Source: Nocardia aurea (GTDB taxonomy: Bacteria > Actinomycetota > Actinomycetes > Mycobacteriales > Mycobacteriaceae). Taken from it: a stretch of 64,000 nt of DNA. Made by a program: the position numbers and the translations under genes. This document shows, one piece after another, positions 1 through 8,810 of this stretch. Each line of letters begins with the position of its first letter. The first letter of the stretch is position 1. The stretch lies in NCBI RefSeq assembly GCF_003123685.1, contig NZ_QCYJ01000085.1, positions 62,001-126,000 on the forward strand, written 5' to 3'. A model generated the notes under the pieces. That model saw only the letters and a program-made list of their open reading frames with translations, searched no databases and was not told the origin of the DNA.

Positions 1-1352
1 GTCCACCGTCCGGGATCGGAGCGCTGGAGTTTGTCGACCTCGTCGGGGCCGAGCCAGGGAGCGCATCTGCGCAGATAGGCGGGTACCGACCACAGGTCGG
101 CGATCAGATCGGCCGCTTCGATCATAGTCCACGCGTTGTCCAGGGTCGCGCGCAATTCATCGTTGTGCCGCAACGAGTTCCGCAGTTGTGCCGCCGAGGT
201 GCCACCGTCGTACTTGTCCATCAGGATCGTGATGAGCAGTTCCCAGATCTGCTCGCGCGCTTCGTTGTGCGGGGTACCGGGTTCGGGCGCGTCGAACGCT
301 TCGGTCCAGTCCTCCGGGCTCAGCGGAATATCGGACCAGTCGGTGGCGACCGTCATGCTCTCGCTGGGCGGCTGTTCGTAGAATTTCACGGCCGCTTCGA
401 TCGCCTTCATCATGTCGGCGGACGATTTCAGGCGCGCGACCTCCGGGTCGGATTCGATCGCGGCCGCCGCGCCCTCGGGGACGAGATCGCGCAGCGTGCA
501 CAACTGCACGTTCTCCTCGCCGAGACTGGGCAGCACATCGGCGACATAGGACAGGTAGGGCTCGTGCGGGCCGACGAACAGCACGCGGTGCCGCAGGGCC
601 GGGTCGGAGTAGAGCAGGTAGGCGGTGCGATGCAGGGCGACGACCGTCTTGCCCGTTCCCGGACCACCGTCGACGACCAGCGCGCCGCGCGACCCGGCGC
701 GGATGATCGCGTCCTGATCGGCCTGGATGGTGCCGAGCACATCCCGCATCCGGGCCGACCGATTGCCGCCGAGACTGGCGATGAACGCGGACTGATCGTC
801 GAGCGCGGCATTGCTCTCGAACCCGTCCGGGGTGAACACCTCGTCCCAGTAGTCGCTGATCCGTTCGCGGGACCAGCGATATCTGCGGCGACGCACCAGG
901 CCCATGGGGTTGGCGTGGGTCGCGCCGAAGAACGGTTCGGCGTCGGGGGAGCGCCAATCGATCAGCAGTTGATTCCCCGCGGCGTCGAGCAGCCCCTGTC
1001 GTCCCACATACACCGGCTCCGGGGTGTCCGCGAGGACCATATGCCCCAGGCACAGGTCCACGCCGAAGCGTCGCAGCGAGCGCAGGCGCGAGGTCAGCCG
1101 GTAGATCTCCGCGTCCCGCTCCACCGCCTCCTGTCCCGCGCCGACGGGCGCTTTGCGGGTGAGGTCCAGGCGTCGGGTCAGCTCGGCGATCGACCGCTCG
1201 AGACTTTCCGCGATGGCGGCGAAATGCCGCTCGTCGGTGGCGACGAGTGTCGGGTCGGCCTTGTGGGACAGGTGGTCGGGAAGGTCGAACACACCGGCAG
1301 TCGATGGGCTCGCGTCATCTGTTCCGTTCGACCCATCGGTCGACGACAACAC
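1..1352 (-). CDS. helR: HelR-like RNA polymerase-recycling helicase/ATPase (3' end outside window)
   Basis: This is a UvrD/Rep-like motor of the HelD/HelR family, which removes stalled or rifamycin-bound RNA polymerase from DNA. About 450 N-terminal residues are visible. An N-terminal coiled-coil-like stretch (FDLPDHLSHKADPTL, then AIAESLERSIAELTRRLD) is followed by a Walker A motif GGPGTGKT near residue 227 with the ALHRTAYLLY helix. The GTG at 1352 is a tentative start, with GGAG about 13 nt upstream; a GTG at 1292 is the alternative. HelR rather than plain HelD is inferred from the N-terminal sequence and from the rifamycin-associated element about 65 bp upstream. No reading frame breaks are seen before the left edge. 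Confidence 0.85.
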   Translation of the reverse strand, partial: MLSSTDGSNGTDDASPSTAGVFDLPDHLSHKADPTLVATDERHFAAIAESLERSIAELTRRLDLTRKAPVGAGQEAVERDAEIYRLTSRLRSLRRFGVDLCLGHMVLADTPEPVYVGRQGLLDAAGNQLLIDWRSPDAEPFFGATHANPMGLVRRRRYRWSRERISDYWDEVFTPDGFESNAALDDQSAFIASLGGNRSARMRDVLGTIQADQDAIIRAGSRGALVVDGGPGTGKTVVALHRTAYLLYSDPALRHRVLFVGPHEPYLSYVADVLPSLGEENVQLCTLRDLVPEGAAAAIESDPEVARLKSSADMMKAIEAAVKFYEQPPSESMTVATDWSDIPLSPEDWTEAFDAPEPGTPHNEAREQIWELLITILMDKYDGGTSAAQLRNSLRHNDELRATLDNAWTMIEAADLIADLWSVPAYLRRCAPWLGPDEVDKLQRSDPGRW

Positions 1353-1414
1353 ACGCAATTCGGCACTCCATTTCCGCAGGTAATGGCTTCGGTGGGCCAT
1401 TGTGCGGCATCACC

Positions 1415-1434
1415 GGGGTCTTGCCGCAAGCCCC
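1415..1434 (-). promoter_or_regulatory. Rifamycin-associated element (RAE)
   Basis: On the minus strand this reads GGGGCTTGCGGCAAGACCCC, a near-perfect inverted repeat matching the known RAE that precedes rifamycin-resistance genes (rph, arr, rox, helR) in actinomycetes. It lies about 63-82 bp upstream of the helR start and in its orientation. A TTATAG sequence just upstream on the same strand (about 1444-1449) is a possible -10 element. The RAE is known to mediate rifamycin-induced transcription. Confidence 0.88.
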
Positions 1435-1483: not shown

Positions 1484-3867
1484 TCACCGTGCTGTCGACG
1501 CGCCGGTGCCGTGACCCACCTGGATTCCCACCACGCAGGTGTCGTCGTCGGTGTTCGCGTCGCTGTCCCGGAGAACGTGGTCGACGAGATCGTCCAGCGC
1601 TCCGGTGAACCGCGCCGCCTGGTTCAGCAGTCGCTCCACGCAATCGTCCAAGGGCAGATCGCGGCGTTCGATGAGGCCATCGGTGTAGAGCAGCAGGATG
1701 TCGTCGGAGTCGAGTTGGAGTTCGGCTTCCTCGTAGGTCATCTCCGCGACGGCGCCCAGCAGCATTCCGCGAAGTTCGGGTAGCGACGTGGCGACACCGT
1801 CACGCACGAGTACCGGCGGCAGATGCCCCGCCCGAGCCCATCGCAATACCCGTGTCTGCGGATCGTAGAGCCCACACACGGCGGTGGCGTAGAGATCCTC
1901 GGTCAGGTGATGGGTGACGAGATTGAGCCAGGTCAGCATCTGTCCCGGCCCCGCGCCGGTGGTGGCGAGGCCGCGAAGCGCGTTGCGCAGCACGACCATT
2001 CCGGTGGCGGCCTTGATGCCGTGCCCGGTGATGTCGCCGACCGAGACCAGGATCTGCTTGGAGGGCAGCACGATCGCGTCGTACCAGTCGCCACCGACCA
2101 TATGGCTCTGTTCGGCGGGGCGGTAGCGCACCGCGATATGCAGGCCGAACGCCTCGATGGACGGTTGTTTGTCGGGCATGATCGCCTGCTGGAGTTGCCG
2201 CGCCAACCGGCTCTGCTCCGCCGCGTGCTGCTCGGTGTGCGCGAGACGATCCTGGGTCGCCGACAGCGCGACCTCGGTCCAGTGCTGTGCGGAGATGTCC
2301 TGGTAGGCGCCACGCAGGGCGAGCAGGTTCCCGTCGTGGTCGAGAACCGGCTCGGCGACGACCCGGATGTGGCGGGTGTCGCCGCTGGGCCGGATCAGGC
2401 GGAATGCCGCCGAGGCGGGACGGTGGTAGCGCACCAGCGTCCGCACCAGTCGCCGCACCGATTCGGCGTCGTCGCCGTGGACGTGGTCCGGAAGCTGTTC
2501 GAGGGGAACGGGATTCGCCGCGATACCCAGGCCGTGCAGGTCGTAGAGCTGTGTGCTCCAGGTGATCCGGCCGGTGGCGGTGTCCTCCTCGAAACCGCCG
2601 ACGCGTCCGAGGCGCTGAGCGTGTTGCAGCAGCGCCGCCAGCCGAGCCGTCTCGTCCTCCACCCGCCACAGCACCAGCACGCAGTCACCGTCGCGACTGA
2701 TGCTGAGCGCGGCCGAGACCGTCAGCGGTACCTGATCGACGAGCTCGGTCAGCACGACCCGGTCGGCGCGGTAGGTCTCGCCGGTGGCGAAGACGTGCTC
2801 GATCCGTTCGAACAGTCGACCTTCGACCGCGGCCAACGGGTAAGCCTCGAGCAGCAGGGCGCCGTTGACCGCGCCGCGCGCACGCCCCACCGGATCGACG
2901 AAACACGAGTTGACGTGATGGATGCGGAAATCGGTGAGCGCGCCGTCCGCACCGAGGTGCGGCAGCAGCACCAGCGCCGGGTCGAGCAGGCTGTCGGTCA
3001 AGCGGACCAGGTCGGCGACATCGTGCCGATCCGGTTCGCCCACGGCGGACGGATCGGATTCGAGGGTGTGGGCACACAACTCCGCCAACGCCTCCAGTTG
3101 CCGCCGAACGCGGGGTGGTTGCGGTGCCAGCGGTGTCGGCCAGCACATTTCCAGCACCCCGGTCAGCGTGCCGCCGGTGCCCGCCGGGATCGCGACCCGT
3201 CCGCCCGCGCGGTCACCGATCGACGGCAACCCGGCCGTCCGCAGGTCTTCGATCCACTGCGCTTCCCGTCGCATCAGCGCCTGACGGGCGGGCGTGGCGA
3301 CACCGGGCGGCACATAACGCCACCGCTCGGCCTCGTGCCGGTCGATCCCGGCGAAACCCACCAGCGACAGCGAGGAATCCGCGCCGACGGACCAGATCGC
3401 CACCGCCGACGCCCCCAGTGGCGCCAGCGCGTGGTCGAGTATCGACTGGGCCACGCGCTGCGGGTCGCCGGTCGCGAGCACCGCGCTTTCGGCGGTACGC
3501 AGGCGCGATACCGTCGAGGGTTCCCCGGAAGTGGCAGTGCGCAGCGGGAATTCGTCGACCACGGCGCTCAGCGTGTCATCCGCGGCCTGGTTGATCAGAT
3601 CGACGGCCAGTTCCAGCGACGTGACACCGGCCCGCTCGGCCAACCTCTCCAGTTGGCGCGCTGCCTGCGCGGGTCCGCATCGCAGCCGTTCGACCATGAT
3701 GCCCTTGGCCATCTCGATCAGCGCCCGTCCGTCGGCGGTGGCTTGAGCGTGCTGGATCTGCGCACGCAACCGCGCGACGGTGGCCGCGAGACGGGTGACC
3801 GCCGCTTCCGGTACCGGCCCGCCGCTCGGTACCGTCCCCTCCGCCGCGCCGGGTACGTCGAGATCGG

Positions 3868-3871
<4 letters not shown>
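1484..3871 (-). CDS. ANTAR-GAF-PAS-PP2C (SpoIIE/RsbU-type) phosphatase
   Basis: This is a 795-residue soluble signalling protein. Domain order: ANTAR-type RNA-binding domain (about 25-95, with ALIEMAKGIMVERL), GAF (about 125-275), a PAS-like region (about 287-400), a second PAS (about 410-530, ending DISAQHWTE), a short coiled coil and a PP2C/SpoIIE phosphatase (about 560-785). The PP2C metal-binding motifs are intact: GGDWYD near 593, VGDITGHG near 611 and YTDGLIERR near 729. Such phosphatases usually dephosphorylate anti-sigma-factor antagonists. The ATG overlaps the stop of the upstream hybrid kinase (ATGA), so the two are probably translationally coupled. No anti-sigma or antagonist gene is in the window, so its target is unknown. 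Confidence 0.9.
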
Positions 3872-8409
<4,538 letters not shown>

Positions 8410-8810
8410 TACCAAACCTCGTATCGGCAAAAGGGCTTGGAGCGGAATCGATCCGGTCCAGGCGGGAACACCGGCTCCGTCTCGGCGCGTCGGCCCGTGA
8501 AACGGTTATGTACTACTTGTTCCCGGGAAAACCTTACGTGTCCGGCTGCGGCCAGTCCTGACTCGAGCCGAACCGAGTACCCCGAATCGCCGAAACCAAT
8601 CCTGAAGGAGCGTGTCGTGGGCACGATCCCGCCATCGCGTCTCTTCGCTGCCCCCGCTCGAGTCGAAACGAATCCCGTTGTGACGCTCCAGGAGTACGCC
8701 GAACGGTCCGAGTGTGCGTTCCCGGCGGAAGGATCGGTCTGTGAGCACGATCTCATCGCCGACGACGCCCCGGCCGTTGGCGGTTCGGCTGCCAGGGCCG
8801 CCCGGCGGTG
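8410..8810. other. Intergenic stretch between kinase and alarmone synthetase
   Basis: About 400 bp without a well-supported gene. It should carry the kinase promoter on the minus strand and the 3' flank of the alarmone synthetase gene. The only coding candidate is a plus-strand ORF with a good ribosome-binding site starting at 8617, listed separately. Confidence 0.5.

Follow-up and report, generated by a model that had tools for sequence, protein, structure and literature searches.

A Streptomyces-type helR gene of Nocardia aurea and a conserved RAE module that suggests two back-to-back promoters

Three described systems resemble the locus studied here, and they are cited from those parts of three publications that deal with them (PMC10719064, PMC8655204 and PMC12802891). 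The first is the RAE-helR of Streptomyces venezuelae (SVEN_6029) with its relatives (NF041254; RGI HelR). It has the RAE palindrome, the protein family and a companion RAE-rox in common with the present locus, and it comes from a different genus. In S. venezuelae the RAEs are found at the same pair of genes, helR and rox (PMC10719064), and its HelR would fall in the same clade as the one described here. The second system is the RAE-helD/helR of Mycobacterium (MSMEG_2174 and MAB_3189c type; NF041258/NF041465), which has the same RAE module at 62 of 80 loci, although the M. smegmatis HelD is only about 36% identical to our HelR and belongs to a separate clade. RAE-bearing helD genes have been reported from two sub-branches (PMC8655204), and in mycobacteria the -35 of promoter P2 lies within the RAE (PMC10719064).

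The third system, the helD/pps dual-promoter rifampicin alarm of Bacillus subtilis, resembles the arrangement predicted here in having an antisense promoter with a 19-bp spacer; its short antisense transcript ends at a proximal terminator, which the terminator-like ends of some RAE modules may parallel, and the system involves the same gene classes as the RAE set, a helD and a rifampicin-modifying enzyme (PMC12802891). Its two promoters are convergent, 39 bp apart and have no RAE (PMC12802891), whereas those predicted here are back to back on a shared palindrome. Convergent, spaced promoters of the B. subtilis type were not found at the RAE, where the predicted promoters are divergent and overlap. 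How the RAE senses rifamycin in actinomycetes was called open in the 2022 review (PMC10719064) and again in the 2026 paper (PMC12802891).

The 20-bp RAE, GGGGCTTGCGGCAAGACCCC, is present with 0 mismatches at 1415-1434 on the (-) strand of the window, which is the whole 64-kb stretch of DNA that was analysed. It contains the 19-bp palindrome GGGNCTTGCNGCAAGNCCC at 1416-1434 (-), and the surrounding sequence scores 71.8 bits at 1464-1386 on the module HMM described below, the helR sequence being part of the training set of that HMM. Even with up to 3 mismatches allowed this is the single match in the window, where 100 shuffles gave a chance mean of 0.01. A HelD-like open reading frame runs leftward on the same strand from an ATG at 1400 and exits the window after 466 aa; on the contig, the full-length reading frame is 741 aa (L004:3176-5401:-). 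The original observation of an RAE upstream of, and oriented to, a HelD-like gene is thus borne out, with the palindrome standing upstream of, and directed towards, a rifamycin-resistance gene.

The search of the whole genome that had been proposed alongside this observation was conducted on 9.37 Mb of sequence in 185 contigs. The 19-bp palindrome occurs twice, at helR and at one further site in front of rox, which encodes a 475-aa flavin monooxygenase. The Rox protein passes the NCBIfam rifampin monooxygenase cut-off of 800 with 900.9 bits, and its RAE scores 75.0 bits on the module HMM, in whose training set the rox sequence is also included. No match to Arr was found in the genome. There are seven matches to Rph, the best being 42% over the ATP-binding part, and these were not taken as Rph. 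Near-RAEs with mismatches elsewhere in the genome (L003 and L019-L022) score no more than 8.7 bits on the module HMM. RpoB has one match, and the RRDR of this single copy presumably reads as rifamycin-sensitive.

On HelR (NF041254), which has a curated cut-off of 750, the full-length protein of 741 aa reaches 1249 bits over residues 38-740. It is below the cut-offs of HelR_2 (424 bits, cut-off 1100), of the mycobacterial HelD_MYCSM (388 bits, cut-off 1051) and of the Class I HelD_BACSU (NF041464; 102.9 bits, cut-off 419). The two other HelD paralogues of the genome are under all four NCBIfam cut-offs. In a midpoint-rooted tree of 39 rows, for which the program warns of long branches, the window protein and RAE-linked HelR proteins from other actinomycetes make up a type A of 16 rows that is one group (100/100), and a type B of 21 rows forms a separate group (99/97). 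The two paralogues, C64 and C80, are outside both groups, on type B's side of the tree. Grouping of the full-length protein with housekeeping HelD had been named beforehand as the outcome that would speak against a HelR role; the protein instead clusters with RAE-linked HelR, the paralogues stand apart, and the predicted role is supported by this and by the family scores.

Further comparisons bear on the same assignment. Among the 25 records listed of 26 in a plasmid collection that match, the homologues of near-full coverage from Streptomyces, Embleya and Nonomuraea have 69-75% identity (69-74% for Streptomyces and Nonomuraea) and carry the label HelR. Three of four records opened have an RGI call of class rifamycin, and helR is the annotation in the remaining one, from Rhodococcus (57%). 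The P-loop motor core is present, with GGPGTGK at 245-251 and VDEAQE at 559-564 invariant in 24 sequences. The predicted structure has a mean pLDDT of 80, and its best fold match is M. smegmatis HelD (TM 0.60), B. subtilis HelD giving 0.47. The tip of the primary-channel (PCh) loop has an acidic sequence in type A, reading D-[GS]-[DE] in 15 of the 16 clade A rows, the loop being modelled at low confidence; M. smegmatis HelD has Glu484-Asp485 for comparison (PMC10719064). Judged by sequence, the window gene is a HelR of the Streptomyces type, and by analogy with its relatives this HelR would displace rifamycin from RNA polymerase.

The M. smegmatis HelD, 36% identical to the window protein, is 72-78% identical to RAE-linked type B, which is found at 16 fetched RAE sites. 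The RAE serves two separate HelD lineages, and the paralogues that lack it in this genome side with one of them. Among the 31 genomes of the same genus with fetched RAE sites, 2 have RAE-linked type A and 16 have type B, and none has both. In other families of the order, 18 genomes were compared; type A is RAE-linked in 11 of these and type B in 0. The window type of HelR is rare in its genus (2 of 31), and was perhaps acquired by horizontal transfer.

The exact palindrome was found in 86 of 119 genomes, the own genome included, against 1 of 119 for a reversed-pattern control. Across the class it is present in 158 of 394 genomes, again with the own genome included, and the control in 3 of 394, the rows being counted by eye. 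From the matches listed, 73 sites of the 119-genome survey were fetched and joined with the two own sites to make 75, and 70 class sites (30 + 40) were analysed, likewise among matches listed. The genes behind the 75 fetched RAEs are rox-like at 30 (seven of a divergent kind), helR B at 16, helR A at 13, rgt-like at 7, rph-like at 4, arr at 4, and one other (L104), so that a helR, rox-like, rgt-like, rph-like or arr gene lies downstream at 74 of 75. The rgt-like, rph-like and arr groups were confirmed by mutual BLAST; the names rgt and rph are those which we take from the known RAE set. The site L104 has neither of the hexamers described below and only 18.9 bits on the module HMM, and RAEs in three stretches of viral contigs have 18.8 bits or less. 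Twenty sites of one genus of the class, with large genomes, and four plasmid loci show the same layout by eye and are outside these counts.

Some of the genes behind these RAEs deserve separate mention. The RAE-linked flavin monooxygenases L071, L085, L098, L109, L125 and L066 (and L065) have 37-41% identity to the Rox of the window genome. Five of these that were scanned score 299-344 bits on rif_monoox, where the cut-off is 800. It is possible that they form a second, unstudied family, which some genomes have in addition to a normal rox. A DrrA-type ABC transporter ATPase (L258:382-1302:-; 337 bits, cut-off 312) lies behind an RAE module with a clear antisense terminator, a hairpin and six T, and is possibly an RAE-driven exporter. 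A hemerythrin-domain reading frame (L240:1559-2758:+) follows a module in which the left box is out of register. A reading frame after another RAE (L264:1500-2744:+) has a rox-like beginning and no family match; a frameshift in rox or an error of sequencing may account for it.

The RAE sites were compared beyond the palindrome itself, the columns of which are uninformative because they are fixed by the search. A total of 187 modules (75 fetched, 70 class and 42 named type-B loci, the last all having the strict palindrome) were oriented by their genes. For three class sites to which no gene could be assigned, the orientation came from the palindrome centre (two sites) or was set by hand (L258). 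Enough flank was available for 182 and, with L104 dropped, 154 were left below 75% identity. A conserved module of about 90 bp surrounds the RAE in these 154 non-redundant sequences. Counting from palindrome base 1, the strongest columns to the left are T-12 (0.98), A-11 (0.97), A-16 (0.96), C-23 (0.97), C-24 (0.91) and C-7 (0.96), and to the right C31 (0.94), A32 (0.99), A34 (0.96) and T36 (0.99). A sense YANNNT is found at columns 31-36 in 145 of 154 modules, and an antisense TANNNT at columns -16 to -11 in 147, the runner-up place on either strand having 25. Each hexamer occupies the positions 21-26 bp away from the centre of the palindrome, with 19 bp between it and a TTGCSG inside the palindrome, and in 136 of 154 modules the predicted antisense start is GG.

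Since the antisense TANNNT is fixed in 147 of 154 modules and the sense YANNNT stands at the mirror place in 145, the comparison suggests two back-to-back promoters that have the RAE as their common core, the palindrome serving both as -35. In the window, the predicted sense promoter on the (-) strand has TTGCGG at 1424-1429 as -35 and CACAAT at 1399-1404 as -10, 19 bp apart, the latter at the YANNNT position. The mirror geometry on the (+) strand places the predicted antisense -35, TTGCCG, at 1421-1426 in the other half of the palindrome and the -10, TAAGTT, at 1446-1451, again with 19 bp between them, and a start would be expected at G1458/G1459. A generic scan of the window found neither a promoter nor a terminator at the module. 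Of 80 type-B loci fetched by protein, the module HMM matches 62, with the strict palindrome in 42; one of the type-B loci, L176, has lost the antisense box. In 26 non-redundant sequences from 57 full-length type-B stretches, G2, G3, C5, G15, C17 and C18 are at 0.88-1.0, like the core.

Two other readings of the module's symmetry and leader were rejected. An extended palindrome acting as an operator would need mirrored pairs outside the RAE, and at 0.8 or above there are just two key -10 pairs and, besides them, -7/27. A hairpin in the sense leader RNA, GGCCGAAGCC, has little or no stability in excess of shuffles (three stretches, lower in 83, 70 and 74 of 154), and covariation is of no use here.

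The sense promoter also bears on where helR begins. The ATG at 1400, from which the longest reading frame starts, overlaps the -10 hexamer CACAAT (1404-1399). Because it sits within the -10, translation would not start there on mRNA from the sense promoter. The start is probably the TTG at 1358 instead, giving a protein of about 727 aa. This is favoured because a ribosome-binding-like GGAG (1366-1369, (-) strand) lies seven bases upstream and because the position fits the start region of the homologues. The N-terminal part of helR in the window is then 1-1358 (-), continuing beyond the window, and the RAE would be about 57 nt upstream of the start.

The predicted antisense transcript often meets a hairpin. 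In a survey of 151 modules with 200 bp of flank, with shuffled sequences and windows 100 bp out as controls, a hairpin of -12 kcal/mol is found at the predicted antisense start in 81 of 151 modules, compared to 38 shuffled sequences and 25 control windows. A looser threshold of -6 kcal/mol separates less, with 127 modules, 101 shuffled sequences and 86 control windows of 151 each. There are 114 hairpins of -8 kcal/mol or better. A stretch with 4 or more T in 9 comes after 45 of them, compared to 1 of 69 for the control windows, and a strong T-run is missing in the other 69 of the 114. The fraction of T is 0.29-0.34 at +19 to +36 and about 0.17 further out. Of the 151 modules, 45 therefore have a terminator-like antisense end, a hairpin followed directly by a T-rich stretch. 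The window's own hairpin at this place (1457-1482, (+) strand) is weak, at -9.1 kcal/mol, and has no T-run; as the sequence reads, the antisense terminator of this locus is degenerate.

Upstream of helR on the same strand is a gene for a 795-aa ANTAR-PAS-SpoIIE phosphatase-like regulator (1484-3871 (-)), the stop of which adjoins the hairpin of the module. Next to it is a 1520-aa reading frame (3868-8430 (-)) with many near-identical internal repeats and, by eye, histidine-kinase and receiver-like sequence. Beyond helR, the gene of a TetR-family regulator points towards helR and away from that of an MMPL transporter (L004:107-2404:- and L004:2435-3130:+).

The whole is very probably explained by a Streptomyces-type HelR under RAE control, with the RAE as the mid-point of a two-headed promoter. 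As known for its relatives, HelR would be an ATP-driven motor that enters RNA polymerase, strips it off the DNA and expels rifamycin. Rifamycin, by the same analogy, would raise transcription of helR together with that of rox, the other RAE gene of the strain. The RAE palindrome would give a -35 to the sense promoter, which is P2 in mycobacteria, and in mirror image another to the antisense promoter, which in many species would run straight into a terminator-like hairpin, as judged from conserved sequence rather than transcription. From the size of its footprint, one polymerase at a time would be expected at the shared RAE. Simple occlusion between the back-to-back promoters was rejected by reasoning and would not explain induction: a polymerase arrested by the drug at the antisense promoter would stand in the way at the sense promoter as well.

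The most likely sensor, at about an even chance, is a dimeric rifamycin-responsive regulator that would bind the palindrome. What favours a regulator is that the palindrome's outer G and C are conserved to the same degree as the -35 core. Sensing by RNA polymerase itself, through competition of the two promoters, ranks second, since there is no other explanation for a conserved antisense promoter that has no gene behind it. Here the antisense promoter would normally dominate, and rifamycin would shift the balance so that the sense promoter fires, with no regulator protein; we regard this as possible, at lower odds than a regulator. The conservation of the antisense -10 (147 of 154) and of GG at its start (136 of 154) agrees with such sensing, as does the terminator-like end that some modules have (45 of 114 hairpins against 1 of 69 control windows). 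The B. subtilis helD antisense promoter likewise has a 19-bp spacer, and its short transcript stops at a proximal terminator; mutation of its -10 leads to high drug-free expression, and an rpoB H482Y mutant is not inducible (PMC12802891). However, the B. subtilis promoters are convergent and 39 bp apart and the RAE promoters are back to back and overlapping, and moving the former 17 bp closer abolished induction (PMC12802891). The conserved outer G and C of the palindrome are, in addition, not needed for -35 elements.

Less likely is a reading of the left box in the sense direction, as a second promoter, P1, rather than in the antisense direction. With a shift of one base, 142 of 154 modules have a sense-strand YANNNT at -17; that its first base is C is no objection, C being likewise the first base of the accepted sense -10 (0.94). 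Two sense promoters have been published for M. smegmatis helD, the P1 start being about 20 bp upstream of the RAE (PMC10719064). Yet columns -60 to -35 hold at most 0.39 bits and so no conserved sense -35, whereas the antisense reading has TTGCSG at the mirror distance. The sense reading occurs alone in 0 of 154 modules, the antisense alone in 5 and both in 142, and the T-rich stretches past the hairpin point the antisense way. In two close relatives of M. smegmatis (HelD 96% identical over 300 aa), a TACCCT 26-31 bp upstream of the RAE would fit the published P1 better, with the antisense TATGGT kept. It is very improbable that we are dealing with a housekeeping HelD whose RAE is there by chance or as a relic: HelD paralogues are common in actinomycetes (PMC8655204) and the terminator of the window is degenerate, but the protein exceeds the HelR cut-off and none of the HelD cut-offs, its RAE lies in a complete module (71.8 bits, against 18.9 or less for L104 and the three viral-contig RAEs), and on family scores, module HMM and tree together this reading was rejected.

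The helR protection gene and the RAE switch are of known kinds, and what the comparison suggests as new is the conserved module with its mirror antisense promoter. The parts of three papers compared here that treat the RAE have no mention of an antisense promoter; the words 'antisense' and 'divergent' are not used in those parts of PMC10719064, nor 'divergent' in those of PMC12802891.

The module as a whole provides a stricter signature for true RAE genes, one that rejects chance palindromes. The conserved antisense promoter offers two precise mutable targets, the antisense -10 and the outer GGG/CCC, that would separate sensing by a regulator from sensing by polymerase. There is a possibility, which we put below that of the dimeric regulator, that the antisense promoter with its own terminator shares in drug sensing; because it would then take part in sensing, RNA polymerase itself would be the rifamycin sensor of actinomycetes, for helR, rox, rgt, rph and arr alike. 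If this is true, the RAE is more than a regulator site, being the common -35 of two mirror-image promoters that exclude each other, and would be the back-to-back counterpart of the B. subtilis alarm.
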